The position numbers and the translations under genes were made by a program. Shown piece after piece: positions 21,856 through 34,053 of a DNA stretch of 64,000 bases (position 1 is its first letter; every line of letters begins with the position of its first letter). The notes under the pieces were generated by a model. It was given only the letters and a program-made list of their open reading frames with translations, was not told the DNA's origin and made no database searches. Where the stretch lies: NCBI RefSeq assembly GCF_014697475.1, contig NZ_JACJRV010000003.1:62001-126000 (forward strand), in the 5' to 3' direction. Source of the stretch: Nostoc sp. FACHB-152 (lineage in GTDB: Bacteria; Cyanobacteriota; Cyanobacteriia; Cyanobacteriales; Nostocaceae).

Positions 21856-22842
21856 CTATGTAGAAAAAGGAATTGACAGTTGTGACGCATTGTTTTTTTG
21901 TTGCTTCGGTTTTTTGCTTCCCCTTGCTGATTCCCATTGCTCAATAACTCCATTAGCTAGATTAATCAATCTTTCTACTGCTGGTTCTGTGTCCCCAATT
22001 TCTGAACCAATCCAGTAACGGTGTAGTTTTTCGGCTGCATAGAATGTAGTCCCAGAACCCCCAAATGGATCGACCACAATTTGACCTGGATTCGATGCCA
22101 TTGCAATAATCCGTTCTAACATAATGGGAGCAAGTTCATTTGGCACGCGTTTTTTGTGCCGACGATGCCGAACTGGTGGGATATCAGTCCACATTTCTTC
22201 TGCTAATGTCCATAAAACTTCAGTAGAATCAGCTTTGGTTGTATCTTCCCAAACATCTTCTGGTGCGTCCCAGACATCCATTAAATTAATACCTTTTTCA
22301 TTCAGCTTCTTTCGATGTCCACCATAGTCACGAATTTCTCCACCACAGTGCCGACAAACTTGAATAGGTGTATAAACTTTGTTAAAAACTGCTGGCTCCC
22401 CTTTTGTGTAATAAATTAGACCATAGTGAGCAGGAGACATCCTTTTACCTCTAGGAAAAGCCTTCGGCATTCTACAAGCAATCCAATGGCGAAACCACAT
22501 CCCCCGACGATTGAGGTAAGCACCATACTCCATGCACCATCTAGGCAGGTTGAAGACAAACAAACTTCCACCAGGTTTCAGCACGCGAACACACTCATTT
22601 AGCCACTGTTGCGACCAGTCTAAATACTTATCTACCTCCATGCGATCGCTCACACCTTCACCATATTCTTTACCAAGATTAAAGGGTGGATCAGCAAATA
22701 CAAGCTCTACAGACTCATCAGGCAAAGCTGACAGCAGTTTCAGACAGTCTCCTTGATAGAGTATGCCATGCTGACTCATGTAAACCTGTTGCAGTCCTTG
22801 TTGAGTAGCAACATCAGGTGTGATTACTTGAAACGGAAGCAT
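21856..22842 (-). CDS. Site-specific DNA methyltransferase, partner of the BamHI-like enzyme
   Basis: 328 aa, beta-class amino-methyltransferase: the catalytic motif DPPFN (51-55) comes before the SAM-binding motif DPFGGSGTT (258-266). It modifies a base amino group (N6-adenine or N4-cytosine; DPPF does not decide). A Cys/His pair CRHCGG with a later His (about 163-176) could bind zinc. Convergent, tail-to-tail with the endonuclease gene, so it should protect the same site, probably GGATCC. No separate controller (C) protein gene was found nearby. Confidence 0.9.
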   Translation of the reverse strand: MLPFQVITPDVATQQGLQQVYMSQHGILYQGDCLKLLSALPDESVELVFADPPFNLGKEYGEGVSDRMEVDKYLDWSQQWLNECVRVLKPGGSLFVFNLPRWCMEYGAYLNRRGMWFRHWIACRMPKAFPRGKRMSPAHYGLIYYTKGEPAVFNKVYTPIQVCRHCGGEIRDYGGHRKKLNEKGINLMDVWDAPEDVWEDTTKADSTEVLWTLAEEMWTDIPPVRHRRHKKRVPNELAPIMLERIIAMASNPGQIVVDPFGGSGTTFYAAEKLHRYWIGSEIGDTEPAVERLINLANGVIEQWESARGSKKPKQQKNNASQLSIPFST

Positions 22843-23120
22843 TCATTTTGCCTTGAGTACATAGGTTTCCACATTGCACCCTTAAAGGTAACTCAAATTC
22901 TGTAGAGAGGTAAACTGCGATCGTGCAACGTTACAGGCTGTCCATCCTCGCTTGTATGATATCGAGGGTAGAGGGCGTATATATAATTATGGCAAAGTGT
23001 GAACTAAAGAAAGTTTAGCTGATCTATTCAATATTGATTACGTGATGACGTGTCTTACAAACTACTGATATAACTAAGTAAGCTTGGAAGTAAGCACAAG
23101 TGTACTATCAGTTTTAACCT

Positions 23121-25808
23121 ATGTATCTTAAAACAGTCTTCATTCGCTTTTATAAATCATTCAACGATGACTTCCTCAGAAAAAATGATCACAGGGTCAA
23201 ACCTAAACCTTGGGAAAAAATAGATGATGCTTTTTACCCATATATTGAAGTTCCAATTCATCCAAAAATCACAACAATTGTTGGTGCAAATGAATCTGGA
23301 AAATCTCACTTATTAAGTGCTATCGAAAAAGCTATATCAGGGAAAAATATAGAACGCAGTGATTTTTGTCGCTATTCTCATTTTTTTACAGTTAAACAAA
23401 ATGAATTAAAATACCCCAATTTTGGAACTGAATGGGCTGGACTCACTCAGACCGAAGAGGTTAGCTTAAGAAAAATTCTTGAAATTCCTGATAACATAAT
23501 TTTTGAGAGATTTTTTGTATTCCGCAACAATATCAATAGTTTAACAGTATATCTACCGGAAAAAGGAGATTACAGACCATACAAGATAGGAACAAAACAA
23601 GCGAGCGAGTTGCAGGGCTTACTTCCAGAAATACTCAGAATTGAATCTGAGGTTGCGCTTCCATCTAGTGTTCCTATAAAAAAACTAGTTCACTTAGGTG
23701 AAGAGAAGTACATCGATAGCAGAAAATTTGAACTTCTGGATCGGGAACAACGAAGTAGAATCGTAGACGCACTTGATAACTTTAGTGATAACCCAGAATT
23801 AGTTACTAGAATTCGTCTGCTCTGGGGTGAAGACAAGGCCGTAGTTGATCCAGTAGCTATTGAAACAATCAAGTCAATTATTTCGGCACTGGATGAAGTA
23901 GGTTTTAGTTCTAAGGAAAAAGAAAGAAGAGAGAAACAATTTAATTTAGCTTATAAATTAATTTGCAAGATAGCCCAAGTGGATACTAATGCGTTGCTAG
24001 ATTTAGCTAAGGCAATTAAAAATGGGATGCAAGGGTACGCAAATGGAATCATCGATAATATTAATAGACAATTATCTATTAATTTAAACTTCCCAAACTA
24101 TTGGGTTCAAGACCGCAACTTCTCCTTAAAAGTTATGGCAAGAGACTATGATTTAGTTTTTACCATAACTGATAGAACTGGAACTGAATATTCATTTAAT
24201 GAGAGAAGCCAAGGATTACGATACTTTCTCAGCTATTACATTCAATACCGCTCTCATGAACCTCATACAAGTAAAACAGAAATATTGTTAATGGATGAAC
24301 CAGATGCTTACTTATCCAGTCAAGCACAACAAGACTTACTTAAAGTTTTTGATCTGTTTGCCAGTCCCGAACCAGGTTCGCATTTAATTTATCCAATCCA
24401 AGTAGTTTATGTAACACACTCTCCTTTTTTAATTGATAAAAATCATGGTGAGCGTATTCGAGTATTACAGAAGGGCAATGAGGATGAAGGAACAAGAGTA
24501 GTTAAAGATGCAGCTAAAAATCATTATGAACCTCTGCGGTCTTCGATTGGTGCTTATGTTGGCGAAACCGCCTTCATCGGCAATTGTAACTTAATGGTTG
24601 AAGGCATTTCTGACCAAATTCTTATTGCAGGAGCTACAACATATCTCAGATCAAATAACACTCCTAATTTAGAAACTTTAGATCTCAATCAAATCACTAT
24701 TGTTCCCTCTGGTTCAGCATCACATATTCCATATTTAGTCTATCTAGCTCGTGGACGGGATATTGAGCAACCAGCTGTAATCGTTTTATTGGATAGTGAT
24801 AATAGTGGTAATGATGCTAAAAGGCAATTATTAGGGAAAGGTGGCCAGCATAGAAGACCCTTACTTAAAGAGCAATTTATACTTCAGCTTGATGCTTTGA
24901 AAGAAGAATTCTGTTTAGTTGCTAATAATATTACACCGAAAATTGAGATAGAAGATATTATTCCATTACAAATATGCATACAAGCCACAAAGTTGTATTT
25001 GCAAGAGTTTCTCCAAGTAGAGCAAACAGAAATTGATTTTTTAAATGAAGACTTAGTTTTAAGAAATATCGATAACAAAACTATACTTGATGCTATACAA
25101 GCAAGTCTGTTAGAGTTTCCCGACAAAAATTTACAAATTAATAAGGTTGGTTTTGCTCGGAATGTTATTCAAGTAGTTAATAACTGGACACGACAAAGAA
25201 ATTCTTTGGATGAGCATCAATATAAAGCACTTCAAAGTTTTGAAAATAACTTTAAAGTTCTGTTTAAAAAATTGAATCTTATGCAGCGCCGTGCCCAGCA
25301 GAGGTTAACAGATGAAAGACTATCTCAAAAAATAGAGCGTTTAAAGAAAAATTTCTTTGCACTTCATTCTATTGCTGCAAGACGTGAAGATGGTGTCATT
25401 CTTCTTGATGATATTGAAGGGATTTTGGATATCAATACAGACAATGAAGCGATTAAAGAAATTGAAGCCATTAAGAGCGCAATTCAAAACTTGCGTCGTG
25501 ATTACAAGTTGGATATTGACATGAGTAAGATGATTCATGACTACACTGGATTTCAGTTAGGCTTAGAGAGAATTAAATACGCAGGACTTTTAGCTAGCCA
25601 AGAAGAAATTGATGATGAGATTCAAGCAGATAATTTAACTAGTTCCGAAAAAGTTTCTGAAGATACACAGGTAGATAAGTTGGGTGTCAATAGGCAAACA
25701 CAAGTTAATAATGAGCAAGTATCAATTACCTCTGAGTTAGACACTGCTGAAATTGCTGATATCGCTACAAATTCTGATAAGAAAAGAAAGCCCAACCGAC
25801 GGCAATAA
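23121..25808 (+). CDS. OLD-family ATPase with TOPRIM nuclease domain
   Basis: 895 aa. N-terminal ABC/SMC-like ATPase: Walker A GANESGKS (55-62), signature-like SQGLRYFLSYY, Walker B ILLMDEPDAYLS (about 389-400) and switch His in VTHSPFLID. Then a TOPRIM domain with the Glu in MVEGISDQ (about 494) and DxD in LLDSDNSGND (about 558-560), which are the metal ligands of OLD nucleases. A long helical tail (about 650-895) ends in an acidic, low-complexity stretch. Family knowledge: OLD nucleases occur alone or with a helicase (GajA/GajB, Gabija). No UvrD-like helicase gene follows, so this is a solitary OLD. Beside the restriction-modification pair it suggests a defence island. Confidence 0.9.
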   Translation: MYLKTVFIRFYKSFNDDFLRKNDHRVKPKPWEKIDDAFYPYIEVPIHPKITTIVGANESGKSHLLSAIEKAISGKNIERSDFCRYSHFFTVKQNELKYPNFGTEWAGLTQTEEVSLRKILEIPDNIIFERFFVFRNNINSLTVYLPEKGDYRPYKIGTKQASELQGLLPEILRIESEVALPSSVPIKKLVHLGEEKYIDSRKFELLDREQRSRIVDALDNFSDNPELVTRIRLLWGEDKAVVDPVAIETIKSIISALDEVGFSSKEKERREKQFNLAYKLICKIAQVDTNALLDLAKAIKNGMQGYANGIIDNINRQLSINLNFPNYWVQDRNFSLKVMARDYDLVFTITDRTGTEYSFNERSQGLRYFLSYYIQYRSHEPHTSKTEILLMDEPDAYLSSQAQQDLLKVFDLFASPEPGSHLIYPIQVVYVTHSPFLIDKNHGERIRVLQKGNEDEGTRVVKDAAKNHYEPLRSSIGAYVGETAFIGNCNLMVEGISDQILIAGATTYLRSNNTPNLETLDLNQITIVPSGSASHIPYLVYLARGRDIEQPAVIVLLDSDNSGNDAKRQLLGKGGQHRRPLLKEQFILQLDALKEEFCLVANNITPKIEIEDIIPLQICIQATKLYLQEFLQVEQTEIDFLNEDLVLRNIDNKTILDAIQASLLEFPDKNLQINKVGFARNVIQVVNNWTRQRNSLDEHQYKALQSFENNFKVLFKKLNLMQRRAQQRLTDERLSQKIERLKKNFFALHSIAARREDGVILLDDIEGILDINTDNEAIKEIEAIKSAIQNLRRDYKLDIDMSKMIHDYTGFQLGLERIKYAGLLASQEEIDDEIQADNLTSSEKVSEDTQVDKLGVNRQTQVNNEQVSITSELDTAEIADIATNSDKKRKPNRRQ

Positions 25809-25930: not shown

Positions 25931-26221
25931 TCATTGTTCAAGTCTGCCAATTTCGATATTGGTTGTAAGGTCAAGCTGACAGGCTAACCGTGCATTGAAA
26001 ATGTTGGGTGCTAATGTATTCAGCATTTCCAACTCGTCTAACTCAGGCGGAGGAATTTCACCAATAACCTCAACTAAACAAGTTCCACAAATACCAGTCC
26101 GACAACCAAACAATACAGGCGAATTCTGAATTGTCAGATGCTCAGATAAATTTTCATGGGCTGGTAAAGTAATAGATGGGTAATCACTTCCCGGAAAAGA
26201 AACAGTACATAAATTAGACAT
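25931..26221 (-). CDS. 2Fe-2S ferredoxin (plant-type fold)
   Basis: 96 aa from ATG 26219-26221. Cluster ligands are the CRTGICGTC motif (C-x4-C-x2-C) plus a fourth Cys in ARLACQL. The conserved MSNLCTVSFPGSDYPS start and LTIQNSPVLFGCRTG are typical of [2Fe-2S] electron carriers for oxygenases. A frame extension to ATG 26245 overlaps the preceding gene by 19 bp and is less likely. The gene follows the di-iron protein directly, so it is a good candidate for its electron donor, and possibly for the Rieske enzymes nearby. Confidence 0.88.
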   Translation of the reverse strand: MSNLCTVSFPGSDYPSITLPAHENLSEHLTIQNSPVLFGCRTGICGTCLVEVIGEIPPPELDELEMLNTLAPNIFNARLACQLDLTTNIEIGRLEQ

Positions 26222-26226
26222 AATAT

Positions 26227-27447
26227 TTAAACCAAACTCTTCCATTCCTCTCCGCGCCTCTGCGTCTCTGCGTGAGACATATCCTGTTCAAATCGTCGAA
26301 AAGCATTTCTCTGAGTCTCCAAATACCGAGAAATCGAATTACCACCCATCACTGACATCTCTCGATTTTGCTGCCAAAGGTAATCAAGTTTTTCCACATA
26401 CACTTTATAAGATTGCATTGCTTCCTGATGAGTTGCAAAACTGCGATGTAAGCCTTCAGACTCTTCTGTAAAACAGCGACGCATCATTTCTTTAGCATCA
26501 GTATCGCTCATATTGAAGATAGGCGATCGCAGCACATAATAAATCTTCCTATACAACGCTGGCTCATACCAAAAAATCCCATTAATCGCCGCCGAAAAAT
26601 GAAAATGATCGCGCTGACATCCCACTAATCCTAAATTAGCAACTAATCGCTCAAATCCAGTTGGTTGTGGTAAACAAGTAACAACGTCATGAGATATAAT
26701 TGTTGAACTATTAAAGTGAAAACTTTCATCTAAAAAGTGATAATAAGATATCTTAGCCGGAATCGGAGCAGCTTCAGGATGAGAATGTTTCTGATAATAA
26801 TTACTGAGTTTATGCTGTACTAATTTACCATTTAGTGTCCTAACTCCTCGGACAGTAAAATACTGACAAGCCAAAAAAGTATTATTCGCAGAAATCAACC
26901 CAAAATATTGTAATTGAATCTTTTTCCACCAAGTTTTTAAAGCATTGGTATCTGCATAAACCATCGTTTCGGTAAACGGGCCGCGCATGGGGTAAGTAAA
27001 TATAGGCTCCCCAAACAATGCTTGTTCAACTTGTTTCGCAATTGTACGGAAGGCGTTAATATGCGCCCTTTCTTGAGAAGATTCTAAATCTAAGGTATCG
27101 CAGATTAAGCGAAAATCTTCTTGAGCATAAAGTCCGGCTGCACTAGTTTGATTGAAATATATAGTTGCAATCTCTGCGGAAACGATTTGAGAATAGTATG
27201 CAACCCAGTAAAGCTGATTCAAAATTATCCTTTGGTGTTGGCTAGACTGTTCCCATAAAGGTGTTCCGTAGAGTAGGGAAAATTCTTCTGGATTCCAGTA
27301 TTCATTTTGGCAATATTCATAGCGAAAGTTTGCAGTTGCTTCATCCATTAAAGCAGTATGGTCTTGCTGTTTATTGCGTGTGTGATTAATTTGTAATTTG
27401 CGATAAGTTGTTGGACTATCTGAGAGTTGTTGAATAGTATTTTGCAT
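26227..27447 (-). CDS. AurF-like di-iron ferritin-fold oxygenase
   Basis: 406 aa. Two ExxH motifs, ERAH (Glu126, His129) and ESFH (Glu241, His244), with Glu92 in VSAEIATIYF and later His residues (His281 region) fit a carboxylate-bridged di-iron site as in the AurF/p-aminobenzoate N-oxygenase group; the match is by motif and size only. The last 15 residues (HAETQRRGEEWKSLV) come from a dispersed CTCTGCG-type repeat, so the original C-terminus was probably shorter. It is followed at once by the ferredoxin gene. Function and substrate unknown; N- or C-oxygenation of an amine or fatty chain is an inference. Confidence 0.65.
   Translation of the reverse strand: MQNTIQQLSDSPTTYRKLQINHTRNKQQDHTALMDEATANFRYEYCQNEYWNPEEFSLLYGTPLWEQSSQHQRIILNQLYWVAYYSQIVSAEIATIYFNQTSAAGLYAQEDFRLICDTLDLESSQERAHINAFRTIAKQVEQALFGEPIFTYPMRGPFTETMVYADTNALKTWWKKIQLQYFGLISANNTFLACQYFTVRGVRTLNGKLVQHKLSNYYQKHSHPEAAPIPAKISYYHFLDESFHFNSSTIISHDVVTCLPQPTGFERLVANLGLVGCQRDHFHFSAAINGIFWYEPALYRKIYYVLRSPIFNMSDTDAKEMMRRCFTEESEGLHRSFATHQEAMQSYKVYVEKLDYLWQQNREMSVMGGNSISRYLETQRNAFRRFEQDMSHAETQRRGEEWKSLV
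26236..26276. repeat. Dispersed CTCTGCG-type repeat inside the di-iron gene
   Basis: CTCCGCGCCTCTGCGTCT is the complement of the repeated GACGCAGAGGCGCGGAG theme that also occurs near 33918, 47798 and 61310. It supplies the 3' end of the 26227-27447 reading frame. Confidence 0.6.
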
Positions 27448-27529
27448 AAAAAATCTCTATATTTTTGTCAATGATGCAAGATGTAAACTAGAAAATAAGC
27501 AAAAGTCAGAAAACTTAATTAAAATCGCT

Positions 27530-28270
27530 ATGAGTCTTTTTTGTTTAGTTCACGGTGCATTCCAAGGTGCTTGGTGTTGGGATTTATTAATTCCTCACTT
27601 AGAAGCGCAAGGTCATAAAACAGTCGCAATGGATTTGCCAATTGCAGATGCATCGGCAAGTTTATCGCAATTTGCTGATGTCGTCCTTCAAGCGTTGCCA
27701 AAAACTGATGATGATATTGTGCTGGTTGGTCATTCAATGGCTGGTACTGTTATTCCTCTGGTTGCAGAAGCTCATAAAGTACGCCAATTGGTATTCTTGA
27801 CTGCGCTGATTCCATACCCAGGAATTAGTACAATTAATCAATTTTCTCATAATCTTGATGCTGATAGTCTTGCCTCATTAAATTACGAACCCAAAGAGTT
27901 AAATCAACTGCAACAATTTCATGATGAACCTGATATGTTTAATCCTGTTTCTGTTGGTAGAGACTTTTCAGATGAAGCAGTATTAATTGAACTGTTTTAT
28001 CATGATTGTCAACCGGATGTAATGCGCTGGGCGTTGTCAAAAAGTCGATCGCAACAAGCAATGGCATATATTTATGAGACAAATCCTTTAAAATCTTTAC
28101 CAAATTTAGACTATAAATATATTCTTTGTAATGATGACCGAATAATTTCTCCTGCATGGTCACGCTATACCGCACGTAAACGCTTGGGAGTTGATGCGAT
28201 TGAATTGCCTGGAGGACATTGCCCACACTTGTCTCGTCCTGCTCAACTTGCCTCCGTATTAACTAATTAA
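27530..28270 (+). CDS. Alpha/beta hydrolase, esterase/hydroxynitrile-lyase type
   Basis: 246 aa. Ser nucleophile in GHSMAG, Asp in NDDRIISP and His in GGHCPHLSRP form the triad. The N-terminal oxyanion block LVHGAFQGAWCW is typical of the methylesterase/hydroxynitrile-lyase group, which splits small esters or cyanohydrins. It is divergent from the AurF-like gene (82 bp between starts) and overlaps the end of the other di-iron gene by four bases. The substrate is unknown; release or trimming of an acyl product is possible. Confidence 0.85.
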   Translation: MSLFCLVHGAFQGAWCWDLLIPHLEAQGHKTVAMDLPIADASASLSQFADVVLQALPKTDDDIVLVGHSMAGTVIPLVAEAHKVRQLVFLTALIPYPGISTINQFSHNLDADSLASLNYEPKELNQLQQFHDEPDMFNPVSVGRDFSDEAVLIELFYHDCQPDVMRWALSKSRSQQAMAYIYETNPLKSLPNLDYKYILCNDDRIISPAWSRYTARKRLGVDAIELPGGHCPHLSRPAQLASVLTN

Positions 28271-29181
28271 AACACACATTGATAAGCAGGAAGTGGTTCA
28301 AAAGCACCTCGTTCATCTAAGGCTTGAACGATCGCATCCGCAGACGCACCACGCATGAGCGATCGCAATATTTGTAATCGGGTTCCACTGTGGATTTGGG
28401 TATCTAATTCTTCGAGGATTTGGATTTTTTGCGATCGCGTCAAATCTCCTTTCACTTTTTCAATGGCGGCTAACACGTTTTGCGGCCCCACCTGTACCAT
28501 AAATAGAAACTGTGCCAATACATCCATGATTATTGCTTGACTATCAGCTGAAACTGACATTTGGTTAAATAATGTAGTTCCCGTACCATGATGACGAGAT
28601 TCTGCTTGCAAAAAACTAGTGAAAAGTTCTGCCAAAATTGGATGATGACACTCTTTCGCCAAGCGGCGGTAATGGCTTAAACCCCATCCTTCTAAAACAA
28701 CCTGAAGCACAAATAACAGTACTGTTTTGTCTGCACTTTCAACTACTTCTGCTAATAAATTCAAAAATGGATCGTTGCTGTTAGTTGATTCGATTTCTGG
28801 TAAAAAATGAATAATTTGGCTGAGGTGAGTGGCTTCATCAGCCGTAAATAGTCCGTAAAGCATTCGCTCTTCTACAGTTTCGGCTAACAATACCATTTTT
28901 GCCATATAACCAACACCTGCTTTTTCAATGAAATAGGATTCTGCTAACAGGCTGCGATTTGTCAACCCAAGTATGGCAGATTGTTCGGCTAAACTTGCTT
29001 GTTGAAAAATTTGGACTCTATGCAGATTAAAAAATTCAGCATCCCAATAATCTAATTGTTGTGAAGATTTATCACCTTGATTTGGCAATGCAGCTTTAAG
29101 TATGCGTTGCAATCGGTCGTTAGGATTTAGATGTGGTAAGTCGATTCCGGCAATTTTATATGACAAATCAATGTTTTTCAT
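28267..29181 (-). CDS. Second di-iron ferritin-like protein
   Basis: 304 aa from ATG 29179-29181; a TTG two codons upstream is less likely. Two ExxH motifs, EATH (about Glu116, His119) and ESRH (about Glu194, His197), and Glu86 in FIEKAG fit a ferritin-fold di-iron site. The order helix-ExxH-helix-ExxH resembles fatty-acid or amine oxygenases, but no named family is certain. It shares no obvious sequence with the AurF-like protein 800 bp away. It overlaps the alpha/beta hydrolase gene by four bases, tail to tail. Confidence 0.6.
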   Translation of the reverse strand: MKNIDLSYKIAGIDLPHLNPNDRLQRILKAALPNQGDKSSQQLDYWDAEFFNLHRVQIFQQASLAEQSAILGLTNRSLLAESYFIEKAGVGYMAKMVLLAETVEERMLYGLFTADEATHLSQIIHFLPEIESTNSNDPFLNLLAEVVESADKTVLLFVLQVVLEGWGLSHYRRLAKECHHPILAELFTSFLQAESRHHGTGTTLFNQMSVSADSQAIIMDVLAQFLFMVQVGPQNVLAAIEKVKGDLTRSQKIQILEELDTQIHSGTRLQILRSLMRGASADAIVQALDERGAFEPLPAYQCVF

Positions 29182-29261
29182 GTTCAAATAAAGATGTTGT
29201 TAAAACAACTTTTCAAGTTAGTAACTCATTACTCTATCTTGAAATTAAGGAGATGAGTTGA

Positions 29262-29732
29262 TTGCAAATTCGTGAAGATGATCTGACAAGTAAAAAGATC
29301 GCTGACCTTCTGCGGGAACATCTCGAAAATATGTATGAGATTACCCCGCCGGAAAGCGTTCATGCTCTTGATATAGAAGCATTGCGATCGCCTAATATTA
29401 CTTTCTTTTCAGCTTGGGAGGGCGAAGAATTACTCGGATGTGGTGCATTAAAAGAACTAGATGCGAGAACTGGTGAAGTCAAATCAATGCGTACCGCCAA
29501 GGCTTACCGTCGTAAAGGTGTCGCCTCCAAGATTTTAGAACACATCATCAAAGAAGCCCAACAGCGTGTTTACTATTACCTGAATTTGGAAACAGGAGCT
29601 TCCCCGGAGTTCGCGCCAGCACGAGCCTTATATATACGGTATGGGTTCGAGTATCGTGGCCCCTTTGGAGACTACAATGATGACCCAAACAGTGTATTTA
29701 TGACGAAAAAGCTCGCTGGAAAAGATTTATGA
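29262..29732 (+). CDS. GNAT-family N-acetyltransferase
   Basis: 156 aa. TTG start 29262-29264 with AAGGAG nine bases upstream; no better start nearby. The acetyl-CoA-binding motif is RTAKAYRRKGVASKIL, followed by the YLNLETGASPEFAPARALYIRYGF block of the YsnE-like subgroup (read in parts). It transfers an acetyl group to an unknown small molecule or protein. It is divergent from the second di-iron gene and may belong to the oxygenase cluster or be independent. Confidence 0.85.
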   Translation: MQIREDDLTSKKIADLLREHLENMYEITPPESVHALDIEALRSPNITFFSAWEGEELLGCGALKELDARTGEVKSMRTAKAYRRKGVASKILEHIIKEAQQRVYYYLNLETGASPEFAPARALYIRYGFEYRGPFGDYNDDPNSVFMTKKLAGKDL

Positions 29733-29830
29733 ACTCTGTTGTTTCCATGTTTCCCATAACAGATGCACATCATCCGGTTGTCCATCGTAGTTGAGCATCT
29801 CGTCTGAAATCGTTTATTAGTTTATATGAC

Positions 29831-30871
29831 TCAGGTTATCCTAGAAGGGCTTTGTGAAACCGAAGAATCAACAGCTTCCCAAGTTCCCCAAGTTAAGGCT
29901 TTCTGATGATTAACGTGCTGGATAAATTGCAAAATTGACTGGTCTGCTTTAGTGGGAGTCTTTAAATCAAACTGAATTGTCTGAAATACCTGTGTATCGC
30001 CTTTGGCGAAGTAATTACCAACCTGTTGTGTTAACCAAAGCAACCCACGATTGATACTCCATCCCAAACATCCAAGACGTTTGCGAGTTATAAGAATAGT
30101 TTGTCCCTCAGTTTTACCACCTTCGGTCATCCGCAACGCAAATATGATGTAGAAGTGGAGGAAGTCTGGCCCTAGTGTGACAGTACCAGTACTGCCATAC
30201 CAATAGCACATACTATAAGTAACTTCATTGCGGTATAGAGGACTAATCAAGCGGATTAACCAGGAATCATCGCCGCCTCTGGTAGTGTTGTTAAATGCGA
30301 TCGCATTAGAATTCAAATCTTGGCAATCAAATACAATCTCCAAAGGTAGATTATGTACAGTATTGAAATGATGAGCATCAATGGCATTAATCAGCAATAC
30401 ATTGGGATGGCAGTTTTTCACAAACCGAGTCCCCAACATATAATCGCAGTCTACCTGTTCCAGTTCCGGGACGAAGGGCAGTAAACTAGGTGTTTCCTCT
30501 CCCGCCCAAACCCAAATCATGCCATATTTTTCTGATGTCTGCCAAGTTTTGATGCACACAGGTAAAGGCTTTCCTTGGGAAGGAACATCAATACAGATTC
30601 CGCGCTGGTCATATTTCCAGTTATGAAAAAAGCAGCGAATAGCATCACCTTCTACCTTACCTTCTGCCAAATGTGCGCCCATATGGGGACAATAAGCATC
30701 CACCGCCATCACCTGACCACTAACTCCACGATAAATTGCCAGGTTTCTTCCTAATAGCGTTACAGCTTTCACCTTACCAACTTTTAATTCTCTAGATGGC
30801 AAAGCCCAGTACCATCCTTCTACAAATTGTGTCGGATGGTTAAAGTTTGCAAGTGGATTGGTAGGATGCAT
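29831..30871 (-). CDS. Rieske non-heme iron oxygenase
   Basis: 346 aa from ATG 30869-30871, five bases after the end of the previous gene; a longer start would overlap that gene by 52 bp. Rieske [2Fe-2S] motif CPHMGAHLAEG ... CFFHNW (C-x-H-x17-C-x2-H) is followed by mononuclear iron ligands in NAIDAHHFNTVH (D-x2-H-x4-H). The arrangement is that of the alpha subunit of a Rieske oxygenase; a separate reductase is needed, and the ferredoxin at 26 kb could serve. The substrate is unknown. Confidence 0.88.
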   Translation of the reverse strand: MHPTNPLANFNHPTQFVEGWYWALPSRELKVGKVKAVTLLGRNLAIYRGVSGQVMAVDAYCPHMGAHLAEGKVEGDAIRCFFHNWKYDQRGICIDVPSQGKPLPVCIKTWQTSEKYGMIWVWAGEETPSLLPFVPELEQVDCDYMLGTRFVKNCHPNVLLINAIDAHHFNTVHNLPLEIVFDCQDLNSNAIAFNNTTRGGDDSWLIRLISPLYRNEVTYSMCYWYGSTGTVTLGPDFLHFYIIFALRMTEGGKTEGQTILITRKRLGCLGWSINRGLLWLTQQVGNYFAKGDTQVFQTIQFDLKTPTKADQSILQFIQHVNHQKALTWGTWEAVDSSVSQSPSRIT

Positions 30872-30876
30872 AACAG

Positions 30877-31617
30877 TTAAATTAAAACCGAATCTTGAAC
30901 AAATTTTAATAATGATTCTGACTGCCACATCCGTTGTCCAGCGCGGGTCAGATTTTCATAACTAATTTCAGTTAAACAAACTAATTCATCGCCTAGACGA
31001 TAGCTAGGATTTTTTTCCTCAAAAAATTTGATATGCGGATTAGTTTGTCGTCCTGTGGGAATTTCAATTAACCCTTCGCGCAGAATTTGGGGATTCTGGA
31101 AGCGAACAATACCAGTTGTTTCTTGATAAGAATCGCCATAATATTCTTGTGCCAAATTCCCCATAAGATTTGCAAAATCGACAGGTGTGGCTGCATCGTA
31201 GCGAGGATAAAACTCTTGCCAAAAGGTAGGAAGAAAGCGATAGGTGCGAAAGCCAGAACAAATTAGCAACCAATATAATTTATTTCCCGCATAATATTCA
31301 CGCAGAAAATTAACTGCGGCAATCCAACTACGCGGTAGAGTTGTACTTGACCAAGCACTCGGATCAACAATTGTATCGCCTGAATACACCACATTAATTT
31401 GCTCTCCAGCAAAGGTCGTTTGGCGCAACATCAGAGTTGAGAATCCTTTAAGAGTATTGGTGATGTCATCTCTCAACAACAATGTCCAGCTTTTACACTC
31501 TAAATCAGCCTGAAATACTTCCCAGGTTACGCCTTTAAAGTGATTATTTAGTAGTGTATACATAGCGATGCGATCGCTTGGTTGCAGCTTTTGAACAGGA
31601 ACCAGCCAACTTTTCAT
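30877..31617 (-). CDS. GNAT-like acyltransferase
   Basis: 246 aa. A predicted GNAT fold: LNNHFKGVTWEVFQADLECK, TLLLRDDITNTLKGFSTLML, INVVYSGDTIVDPSAW and an Arg/aromatic-rich middle (GFRTYRFLPTFWQEFYPRYD). No clear acetyl-CoA loop was seen, and a long-chain acyl carrier substrate is possible. It ends five bases before the Rieske gene, so they form an operon. It probably attaches an acyl group to the product of this cluster; this is inference from context. Confidence 0.55.
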   Translation of the reverse strand: MKSWLVPVQKLQPSDRIAMYTLLNNHFKGVTWEVFQADLECKSWTLLLRDDITNTLKGFSTLMLRQTTFAGEQINVVYSGDTIVDPSAWSSTTLPRSWIAAVNFLREYYAGNKLYWLLICSGFRTYRFLPTFWQEFYPRYDAATPVDFANLMGNLAQEYYGDSYQETTGIVRFQNPQILREGLIEIPTGRQTNPHIKFFEEKNPSYRLGDELVCLTEISYENLTRAGQRMWQSESLLKFVQDSVLI

Positions 31618-31799
31618 TATTCAGAATTTACCTATACTCGTTTAGGAGAAGTCTTAAATTAACACTCTAATAAGCAAAATGGTGAAATTACTGAGTAATG
31701 TGACAGATTCGAGAATGGTTATTTACACTACTTATTAATAATTACTATAAATTGCTCATGGTGCAGTAATCTCGTCGATAACCCTACCATTAAATTTAA

Positions 31800-32813
31800 T
31801 TAACTTAACTTTGAATCTTTTGCCAGATTTGACCATCTAGATGGTTCTAGCTGATTAACATACTGCATATATTGAACCAAAGGCTGATCAATACTCAGTA
31901 GCAACTGCGGATTAAAGCAAATATTATCGTAAATTTTGCCATCTTCATCTCTGAGCATATAGTAAGCCAATCGAGTACAAAACAGCAAAAACTTACTCAT
32001 AAGATATCCGATGATTCCTTGACGTTTTTGGGTTACATAAATAGGTTGAATTCTTGTTCTCCCAGGCGCAATTGGAGTATAAGCATATATCATGTGCAAT
32101 GGAGGAAAAAGCCGCACATTCTTCATCATGGTTAACAAACCGATGCAACCATCAGCATAACGCATTGAATACTCATAGGTAGATCCAAGAAATCTTTGCC
32201 CTAAGCGTTCTCTAAAAGTTGTTTGTGGAAATTTACCCCGCATCGTAAAGTCAATTTGTGTACCTAACTGATTACGATGTAGCGACAAATCCATTTTGAT
32301 ATCTAAATGATGAATTGTTTTTAAATGTTGAGCATCAATGCCATTCATCATACAAATATGATGATGGCAACTTCTTTCAAAGGCAGTATCAGCTTGTGCA
32401 GTAACTTCCTTACCCTGCAATTCATCAAAATCAGCCACACTTTCTGGTGCTACAGCATCAGGATAAATCCAAATAAAACCATACTTTTCTTCTGTTGCAT
32501 AAGCTTGCACTTTTGCTTTAGCTGGAATCTCTGATTGACAGGGAATATTTTGACAAATTCCTGTTTCATCAAATGCCCAATGATGAAATGCACAACGAAT
32601 CCAATTACCGTCAACCTGGCCAATTCCTAAATCTGTACCCAAATGAGGACAGTAAGTATCCAACGCGCGCACTTGCCCATCTTCACCGCGAAATATAGTA
32701 ATTCTGCGATCGCAAATATCTACTGATTTGGCTTTTCTGATAGCTAATTCCTTACTAGGGCAGGCAATGTACCAACCTTTAGCAATAATATTCCAATTAT
32801 TAAATATCTGCAT
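31800..32813 (-). CDS. Second Rieske non-heme iron oxygenase
   Basis: 337 aa from ATG 32811-32813, which overlaps the end of the Mpo1-like gene by 14 bp. Rieske motif CPHLGTDLGIG ... CAFHHW and iron ligands in NGIDAQHLKTIH. It is similar in layout to the Rieske protein at 29.8 kb, with similar N-terminal blocks (GWYIACPSKELAIRKAKSV versus GWYWALPSRELKVGKVKAV), so they are paralogues that may act on successive positions of the same substrate. Confidence 0.88.
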   Translation of the reverse strand: MQIFNNWNIIAKGWYIACPSKELAIRKAKSVDICDRRITIFRGEDGQVRALDTYCPHLGTDLGIGQVDGNWIRCAFHHWAFDETGICQNIPCQSEIPAKAKVQAYATEEKYGFIWIYPDAVAPESVADFDELQGKEVTAQADTAFERSCHHHICMMNGIDAQHLKTIHHLDIKMDLSLHRNQLGTQIDFTMRGKFPQTTFRERLGQRFLGSTYEYSMRYADGCIGLLTMMKNVRLFPPLHMIYAYTPIAPGRTRIQPIYVTQKRQGIIGYLMSKFLLFCTRLAYYMLRDEDGKIYDNICFNPQLLLSIDQPLVQYMQYVNQLEPSRWSNLAKDSKLS

Positions 32814-33207
32814 ATCTAGTTTTTTGGTAACTATATAATATTTCTTTTCTTTGGCGAATATCATCTTGATATTTACCAATTAAAACCCTGAATAGCATTC
32901 TACCTAAACAATAAGAAGCTCGCCAAGAAAACACAGCATCTTGCAAATCAATGTGGCTACGCTCAAATAAAAAATGTCCTGTTAATCCAATTAACTGAGT
33001 TAAGGGTAATCCTAAGAGTAACCATAGATTTTGCAACTTCCAAGCAGAAAATAGCAAACTGTAAAAAAAGACTATCCCTAAAATATGGAGAGCAACATTA
33101 ACAGGATGCTGATGTTTAAGAACAAAAATATCCCAATAATCTGTAAAAGGATGCTCCAGAATTTGGTTATTAATCCGATTTCTTAACTGTTTTTGAAAGT
33201 TATTCAT
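32800..33207 (-). CDS. Mpo1-like/DUF962 membrane protein
   Basis: 135 aa, with two or three hydrophobic helices (about residues 36-92). The His-rich pattern HPVNVALHILGIVF, then GHFLFERSHID, matches the DUF962/Mpo1 family; the yeast member Mpo1 is an Fe(II) dioxygenase that alpha-oxidises phytosphingosine-derived fatty acids. It overlaps the HNH gene by four bases (ATGA) and the Rieske gene by 14, so the three are one transcription unit. A role in lipid or fatty acid oxidation is an inference from the family. Confidence 0.7.
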   Translation of the reverse strand: MNNFQKQLRNRINNQILEHPFTDYWDIFVLKHQHPVNVALHILGIVFFYSLLFSAWKLQNLWLLLGLPLTQLIGLTGHFLFERSHIDLQDAVFSWRASYCLGRMLFRVLIGKYQDDIRQRKEILYSYQKTRYADI

Positions 33208-33863
33208 TTATGTCTCGTCCACTTGCACTGTATATAGTGTTCTTCTATTGCCTTTTTATCAGGTCTATCAGCCTCGCTTTCAGGAAGTGAGATTTTTCTC
33301 TGAAAAAATGCCCGACATTGTGTTTTCATTAATTTAGGTGCAATTAAAACTTTCATAGTCTCTGGCTCGATAGTAATTAGCTTGAGATCGAATAAAGTGT
33401 GAAGATCGGCTCTCAACAATAATCCGTTACAAGTATTATTAGTTTGTATCCCACGATAAGGAATAATGTGTGCTGCCTCTAAAGCCTGCTCTACGTCGCA
33501 GCCAGAAATAGCACATCTATCTTTGTAGGCTGTAAGAAGTTGCTGGCGAAATTGAGATTGTCCTCGACGACGAACTATTGACGTTAAAACTCGCTCTCTT
33601 GCATCTTCTAAAGTTATAGTGTTAAAAAAATTTCGATCCAGTTCTTGCTGAATGCTACTCAGCTTTGTAATTTCTAAATTCCGATACTGTGAGATTAATT
33701 GTTCTACTTTTTCGAGAATGTCTACAGTAGTTTTGTGTTCCCTTTGGGCATACCAAACGTTTGCCTGCCCCACCGCAGTAATTCCTTGATAATGTTTCAT
33801 CCAACCGATATTGAAAAAAATTATTTTTTCCATATTTATAAAATTACTGGTATATTTCTGCAT
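33204..33863 (-). CDS. HNH-nuclease-domain protein
   Basis: 219 aa. C-terminal HNH_2-type domain (about residues 95-195): FRQQLLTAYKDRCAISGCDV, EAAHIIPYRG, CNGLLLRADLHTLFD. The typical zinc pair is replaced by C-x4-C in CAISGC, as seen in HNH_2. The N-terminal part (1-90) is helical and of unknown function. It is translationally coupled (ATGA) to the Mpo1-like gene, which is unusual for a nuclease; a restriction-like or mobile role is possible, and its presence in an oxidoreductase operon is unexplained. Alternative start at 33833. Confidence 0.75.
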   Translation of the reverse strand: MQKYTSNFINMEKIIFFNIGWMKHYQGITAVGQANVWYAQREHKTTVDILEKVEQLISQYRNLEITKLSSIQQELDRNFFNTITLEDARERVLTSIVRRRGQSQFRQQLLTAYKDRCAISGCDVEQALEAAHIIPYRGIQTNNTCNGLLLRADLHTLFDLKLITIEPETMKVLIAPKLMKTQCRAFFQRKISLPESEADRPDKKAIEEHYIQCKWTRHK

Positions 33864-34053
33864 AATATCAATTAGTAAAAGACAGGAATTTAATGCTAAA
33901 CTCGCAAAATTATCTTTGCGTCACTGCGTGAGATAGCCTACCTAAGAGTGAGACAAAACTGTTCCCAATTTTTCACGTCTCAAATAACTTTAGTGCTGCC
34001 TCAAGCCGCAATTTTGTAAAATTAGACCAAAGTTAAACCATAGCTCTTTACTC

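Follow-up and report, generated by a model that had tools for sequence, protein, structure and literature searches.

Rieske oxygenases and a halogenase-like di-iron protein in a conserved cyanobacterial gene cluster of Nostoc sp. FACHB-152

We analysed a 64,000-nucleotide stretch of contig NZ_JACJRV010000003.1 from Nostoc sp. FACHB-152 (the window), which contains a group of oxidoreductase genes. Seven window genes between 25.9 and 33.2 kb, encoding a ferredoxin (Fd), two di-iron proteins (DiA and DiB), two Rieske oxygenases (RieA and RieB), a GNAT-fold protein (AcT) and an Mpo1-like protein (Mpo), form the part of a conserved cyanobacterial cluster that is present here (Table 1). A preliminary description, made from the DNA alone, had grouped ten genes here. 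All ten reading frames are open at their listed positions, and their products match the Pfam models Fer2, Abhydrolase_6, Acetyltransf_1 and relatives, Rieske (twice), Mpo1-like and HNH_2 above cut-off. DiB and AcT gave no Pfam or NCBIfam match in the scan of window proteins.

Gene set and conservation

Relatives of the locus were sought in a genome collection with 19 aligned DiB proteins, and of the 92 loci encoding a relative the best 80 were kept. They were compared by tblastn with the window proteins (E 1e-5) and by clustering of 1412 open reading frames (ORFs). Going by genus names, we take all 80 loci to be cyanobacterial. DiB is present in all 80 by construction and is accompanied by RieA (77 loci), DiA (75), AcT (69), Fd (69), RieB (61) and Mpo (27). 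The relatives additionally carry a third Rieske oxygenase (RieC, 65), a fatty-acid hydroxylase (FAH, 62), a hexapeptide transferase (LbH, 58) and a GH3-family ligase (GH3, 53), with an amidohydrolase in 23. Many of the loci end at contig ends. In the 61 loci with over 6 kb of sequence ahead of DiB and over 9 kb beyond it, the families number 60 for RieA, 57 for AcT, 57 for DiA, 55 for Fd, 54 for RieC, 53 for FAH, 50 for RieB, 49 for LbH and 46 for GH3.

The preliminary description had looked to synteny to show whether the genes belong together, and both gene set and order are kept across the 80 loci. With neighbours taken from the tracked families only, RieA precedes DiB in 77, DiB precedes DiA in 69 and AcT precedes RieA in 67. 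The usual order is [amidohydrolase-Mpo-RieB]-AcT-RieA-DiB-DiA-Fd-RieC-FAH-LbH-GH3, as many loci of Nostoc and Planktothrix show. RieB lies mostly before AcT (27 loci) or after DiA (31), as it does in Calothrix-type loci, and Mpo adjoins RieB in 26 of its 27 loci. Gene order being kept across these loci, we reject a chance grouping of the window genes, with the reservation that the loci were retrieved through DiB and that only the best 80 of 92 are included.

Seven of the ten genes originally grouped belong to the conserved set and three do not. The HNH gene and the GNAT gene at 29262-29732 have no tblastn match (E 1e-5) across the 80 loci and the alpha/beta-hydrolase has tblastn matches in 7 and is counted as a family in 6, and this near-absence leads us to reject all three as pathway members. 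The overlaps from which co-translation of the HNH, Mpo and RieB genes had been deduced are present: 4 bp between HNH and Mpo (33204-33207), and 14 bp between Mpo and RieB when an inner ATG is taken as the RieB start (80 bp with the longest ORF). Both Mpo and RieB occur in 26 relatives and their genes overlap in 17 of these, by 14 or 17 bp; the overlap with HNH, which is outside the conserved set, is uninformative on the pathway.

At least four further members of the set lie outside the window, where tblastn with as many as 15 sequences per family gave no match for RieC, FAH, LbH, GH3 or the amidohydrolase. Contig C7 of this genome carries RieC, FAH and LbH (L093:6062-8589), and GH3 is on contig C103 (L138:7835-9340) as an open 501-residue frame among other genes. 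Since C103 measures 404 kb and the contig with the window (C114) 328 kb, the separation of GH3, at least, does not merely reflect a nearby contig end; C7 is 18 kb long. FAH and LbH match PF04116 (83.6 bits for the FAH of this genome on C7) and Hexapep, respectively. The scattering that the preliminary description had thought would expose the cluster as a coincidence is therefore partly true of this genome, where the set occupies three contigs; across genomes, its scattered members nevertheless occur together. Directly after LbH, in the place that GH3 takes in relatives, lies a 495-residue ORF (L093:8744-10231) with no Pfam match, and the contig ends about 2 kb further on.

Table 1. Positions in the window of the genes and DiA sites discussed
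Feature	Position	Strand	Basis or remark
Fd, [2Fe-2S] ferredoxin, presumed electron donor	25931..26245	-	Pfam Fer2 34.5 bits (cut-off 21); family in 69/80 loci
DiA, CylC-like di-iron protein, halogenase-like	26227..27447	-	both halogenase motifs, tree
DiA HxxDExxH, residues 237-244	26716..26739	-	present in window and 75/75 relatives
DiA Gln211, aligned with essential NocO Glu252	26815..26817	-	Q in 76/76 DiA
DiA ExxQExxH, residues 122-129	27061..27084	-	present in window and 75/75 relatives
DiA Glu92, presumed iron ligand (putative role)	27172..27174	-	E in 76/76 of family; 30/30 rows including CylC-type
Alpha/beta-hydrolase, not in conserved set	27530-28270		Abhydrolase_6
DiB, second di-iron protein	28267..29187	-	E-x29-ExxH twice (E88/E118/H121, E166/E196/H199)
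GNAT gene, not in conserved set	29262-29732		Acetyltransf_1 and relatives
RieA, Rieske oxygenase	29831..30928	-	Pfam Rieske 82.1 bits; solved match KshA
AcT, GNAT-fold protein, presumed acyltransferase	30877..31617	-	
RieB, Rieske oxygenase	31800..32879	-	Pfam Rieske 81.6 bits; family in 61/80 loci
Mpo, Mpo1-like protein	32800..33207	-	PF06127 34 bits (cut-off 24); family in 27/80 loci
HNH gene, not in conserved set	33204-33863		HNH_2

DiA and the other enzymes of the set

DiA and DiB had both been described as ferritin-like proteins with two ExxH motifs. These sites are present (DiA residues 126 and 241, DiB residues 118 and 196), each protein has a third (DiA 331, DiB 179), and DiA is a CylC-type, halogenase-like protein; its AurF match is under the Pfam cut-off (21.4 versus 29.6 bits). 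The two motifs of DiA, ExxQExxH and HxxDExxH, are those used to recognise di-iron halogenases (PMC12871659, PMC12101540), and the Gln of the former is called halogenase-specific (PMC12871659). Characterised CylC-type enzymes are reported to chlorinate fatty-acyl chains, and nine NocO residues are essential for chlorination, seven of them in the two motifs and another being Glu252 (PMC12101540); the ninth is presumably the equivalent of DiA Glu92. The NocO E252A variant does not chlorinate but retains iron binding (PMC12101540). In AurF, E196 fills the corresponding coordination site, and the CylC Glu is predicted to swing out, leaving room for chloride (PMC12101540).

An alignment of 30 rows, comprising the window protein, 18 Rieske-type sequences (one of which duplicates the window gene) and 11 CylC-type sequences, has the motif residues and Glu92 invariant throughout. 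The position of NocO Glu252 is occupied by Glu in all 11 CylC-type rows, with the same 30-residue spacing to the following HxxDExxH Asp that separates E252 and D282 in NocO. In window DiA it is Gln211, 29 residues before that Asp, and Gln is found in all 76 DiA proteins. DiA thus keeps all seven motif residues required in NocO and does not keep Glu252, and because not all nine NocO residues are matched we call it halogenase-like and not a halogenase. Against the literature searched, the combination of both halogenase motifs with Gln in place of the NocO Glu seems to be new. The Gln would keep the coordination site permanently open, which would suit a halogenase, but it may equally mean a different reaction.

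In a tree built from our own loci, not from the sequences of PMC8406957, a single branch with support of 100/100 divides 30 Rieske-cluster rows from 11 CylC-type rows. DiA proteins have 387-415 residues (one ORF has 505), compared with 460-473 for three ligase-linked CylC-type proteins checked. Among four CylC-type controls whose surroundings were fetched, L143, L145 and L146 adjoin an AMP-ligase and L144, by eye, does not; a neighbouring carrier protein was confirmed by Pfam for L145 and L146. L143 comes from the same genome as the window: on contig C105 a second CylC-type gene has as neighbours an AMP-ligase, assigned by Pfam, and an ORF that looks PKS-like by eye; its protein retains the Glu lost in DiA and is a natural control within the same cell.

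The motif E-x28-31-ExxH occurs twice in DiB at all 80 loci, and two copies of E-x(~29)-ExxH are the pattern of class I di-iron carboxylate proteins. The AlphaFold model of DiB has low confidence (pLDDT 46.8) and its sole PDB sequence match (E 0.055) is unrelated. Lone DiB relatives with 48-49% identity, with no other gene of the set within about 18 kb, were seen at L136 and L137.

RieA and RieB were rightly identified as Rieske oxygenases: each carries a CxH-x16-CxxH Rieske motif and a DxxHx4H iron site. Across the loci, the Rieske motif and a DxxHx4-5H iron site are both present in 77/77 RieA, 65/65 RieC and 60/61 RieB sequences (iron site 61/61). The best solved match of RieA is KshA (92.3 bits, residues 31-192), as it is for RieB; RieC is closest to SxtDIOX and methylxanthine demethylase, with KshA at just 36.5 bits. 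A saxitoxin-type pathway is very improbable: the SxtT and SxtDIOX structures are matched over about the N-terminal half only, at 59-81 bits and beside many other Rieske enzymes, further such genes not having been sought.

AcT has a GNAT fold and precedes RieA as noted above, so this much of its description as a GNAT-like acyltransferase before a Rieske gene stands; the acyltransferase assignment itself is weighed below. Foldseek and VIA gave no separation of AcT among GNAT subfamilies, and a distant protein search returned no informative names among the best 120 of 134 matches.

GH3, co-occurrence and neighbouring genes

The GH3 copy of this genome matches the N-terminal, central and C-terminal GH3 domains at 93.3, 56.8 and 31.1 bits, all over cut-off, and the GH3 of a relative scores 101.6 bits against the N-terminal domain. 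Motif I (TSGSSG) and motif III (GLYRYRIGD) of the former resemble those of plant GH3 enzymes, and only a TE pair was found by eye for motif II. GH3 enzymes are described as activating a carboxylic acid with ATP and then coupling it to an amine, the bacterial OlsH making N-acyl-ornithine (PMC12493201).

DiB, DiA, GH3 and AcT were each searched for in the same sample of 292 genomes from the phylum. DiB is present in 21 genomes. DiA has any match in 26 and a match above 530 bits in 18, the next score being 197.5 bits within one of those same genomes; GH3 has any match in 42 and a match above 350 bits in 18, the next being 307 bits. The 18 genomes with high-scoring DiA and the 18 with high-scoring GH3 are identical, which seems to be new against the literature searched. 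In G000, G125, G076 and G093, for example, the two genes lie on separate contigs or some 1-3 Mb from each other, and therefore the link between them is not only physical. DiB, DiA, AcT and GH3 also occur in three genomes of the phylum that fall outside the class of this Nostoc (G004, G018 and G038), with AcT and DiB more diverged.

AcT is found in 26 genomes, and a GH3 match scoring 137 bits or more accompanies it in 25 of them. Beyond the 18 shared genomes, DiB has three extra (G058, G091 and G174) and AcT eight, seven of which (G199, G062, G013, G050, G053, G077 and G100) carry a GH3 of 137-307 bits within about 4.5 kb. These seven are without high-scoring DiA, G199 having a CylC-type homologue, and such AcT-GH3 pairing also seems new against the literature searched. 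In G058, AcT, DiB and LbH are present and GH3 has no match.

Several loci show AcT and GH3 in other company. At L126 and L130 the pair occurs without oxygenases, near a further unclassified protein of 359-363 residues and, at L126, radical SAM enzymes of B12-type similarity; this arrangement is a simpler form of the module, perhaps an older one. At L129 a fatty-acid desaturase (PF00487, 128 bits) lies between AcT and GH3, and the genome has no DiA match.

Beside Fd, the window has an AAA/OLD-type gene and a DNA methylase in place of the RieC-side genes of relatives. The methylase (PF01555) and the 895-residue AAA/OLD-like protein, which has weak AriA, Old and GajA matches, lie at 21856-25808 and are a possible defence pair; Nostoc sp. 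106C (L015) likewise has an AAA-type relative (75% identity) after Fd. The HNH protein is moderately similar to restriction enzymes acting on phosphorothioate DNA (49.8 bits, cut-off 180). The GNAT gene at 29262-29732 has 82-83% DNA identity to sequences on three Nostoc plasmids; a plasmid search with 26000-33900 returned three records, the best place of each being within this gene only. It looks like an insertion between DiB and RieA.

Proposed pathway and known systems

Gene set, order, co-occurrence, fold and motifs are directly observed, and from them we infer every reaction step. We propose, with a probability of roughly 0.45, that the cluster makes a fatty-acyl amide and then oxidises and likely chlorinates it. 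GH3 would activate a carboxylic acid as its adenylate and join it to an amine, and AcT would transfer an acyl group onto a hydroxyl or a second amine. The amide would then be tailored by as many as six iron enzymes that activate oxygen (RieA, RieB, RieC, DiA, DiB and FAH), with Fd supplying electrons to the three Rieske oxygenases and to DiB, DiA and FAH. DiA would cleave a C-H bond that is not activated and, most likely, rebind chloride there, and hydroxylation or desaturation of this skeleton would fall to DiB, FAH and the Rieske enzymes. The predicted role of LbH is to acylate a hydroxyl. In lineages carrying Mpo, this protein would shorten a 2-hydroxy-acyl chain by one carbon, presuming that it works like yeast Mpo1.

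The gene order kept in the 80 loci, the GH3 domains and motifs, the co-occurrence of GH3 with DiA and with AcT, the seven NocO motif residues and the invariant Glu92 in DiA, and the fatty-acyl chlorination by characterised CylC-type enzymes (PMC12101540) speak for this proposal. So do the sole NCBIfam matches of two relatives' proteins, the ornithine-lipid hydroxylase OlsE for FAH (L053) and OlsH for GH3 (L054). Several observations weigh against it. The usual GNAT CoA loop is [QR]xxGx[GA], and this is missing anywhere in 66 of 69 AcT sequences, so that AcT may not be an acyltransferase after all. Regular expressions for the GH3 motifs fit 33 of 53 relatives for motif I, 40 of 53 for motif III and none of 53 for motif II. 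The scores of the OlsE and OlsH matches are far under cut-off, at 55 of 475 and 27.1 of 620 bits respectively, and an ornithine-lipid pathway as such is rejected on these scores. DiB occurs without the rest of the set in two genomes (G091 and G174). The Fisher tests of co-occurrence (p ~5e-29 for DiA-GH3, ~3e-35 for AcT-GH3) are descriptive, ignoring genome relatedness and using bit thresholds set at gaps seen afterwards. Finally, chlorination is in doubt because DiA has Gln throughout the family at the position where NocO E252A is inactive.

This last point is the heart of a somewhat less likely alternative in which the acyl-amide pathway is the same, DiA acts as an oxygenase and the product is polyhydroxylated and unchlorinated. 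The uniform Gln (76/76, against Glu in 11/11 CylC-type homologues), the effect of E252A in NocO (PMC12101540), the separate DiA clade (100/100) and the oxygenase types of the other five iron enzymes, by domain or motif, all favour it. It is opposed by the retention of ExxQExxH with its halogenase-specific Gln (PMC12871659), and Gln at the Glu252 position lacks the carboxylate needed to close the halide site. An acyl-amide pathway, with or without chlorination, is quite probable. We regard as rather unlikely the bolder proposal that DiA stands at the head of a separate branch of natural di-iron halogenases, with Gln permanently replacing the fourth carboxylate and the halide site open by design, and with free GH3-GNAT acyl amides, not carrier-bound chains, as substrates.

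Improbable, in our estimate, is tailoring of a terpenoid, in which a skeleton resembling a sterol or hopanoid would be oxidised by the Rieske enzymes and FAH. In its favour, sterol desaturases belong to the FAH superfamily, both RieA and RieB have KshA as their best solved match, and the top NCBIfam match of RieA (77.5 bits), RieB (68.3) and a relative's RieC (70.6) is 4beta-methylsterol monooxygenase. All three scores are nevertheless far under the cut-off of 600, RieC is closest to enzymes other than KshA, no terpene cyclase was found among the recurrent families scanned, and the GH3, GNAT and Mpo1 types indicate acyl chemistry.

A constant GH3 partner would direct chemists towards an acid coupled with an amine, and since the substrate would then not have to be carrier-bound, the enzymes would be easier to assay. 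The Gln-for-Glu change in addition offers a direct test of the role of that residue in di-iron halogenation.

Known systems resemble the cluster to differing degrees. OlsH-type N-acyl-amino-acid synthetases (PMC12493201) share the GH3 domains, recognisable nucleotide motifs and lipid-type partner enzymes, and differ in the very low score to the OlsH model given above. The CylC/NocO di-iron halogenases (PMC12101540) share ExxQExxH, HxxDExxH and an AurF-like family, whereas DiA has Gln for Glu252, is shorter and forms a separate clade. Unlike those systems, no AMP-ligase or carrier protein was found among the 15 window proteins scanned (21.9-37.8 kb). Closer are the PriA-containing CylC clusters of Synechocystis (PMC8406957): Synechocystis salina (L091) has AcT-RieA-DiB-DiA with a DiA of the same clade, although the remaining functions are described as dispersed in the genome (PMC8406957).

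The closest likeness is to a published class. The survey of Eusebio et al. 2021 sorted 95 CylC-encoding clusters, the largest class of which, termed Rieske-containing (n = 36), was missed by CORASON and has no known product (PMC8406957). Among the open-licence literature matches listed, covered by title and start of abstract, no product or GH3 partner for the class was recognised, and figure S4 of the survey may draw GH3 genes (PMC8406957). Its clusters contain 2-4 Rieske proteins and only one CylC homologue, in most cases with a sterol-desaturase-type protein, as well as acyl transferases, and occur chiefly in Nostocales and Oscillatoriales (PMC8406957). Here DiA is the only CylC homologue of the cluster, RieA and RieB are joined by RieC on contig C7, FAH on the same contig outside the window is the sterol desaturase family protein, and DiA falls within the Rieske-cluster branch (100/100, a clade built from our own loci) that we take to correspond to the Rieske/PriA clade. 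The spread of the set over three contigs in this genome is a point of difference. The idea of an uncharacterised biosynthetic cluster therefore holds in that the genes are of biosynthetic type with no known product, but the class had already been published as an orphan (PMC8406957), and the window cluster is almost certainly a member of it and so not of a new kind.

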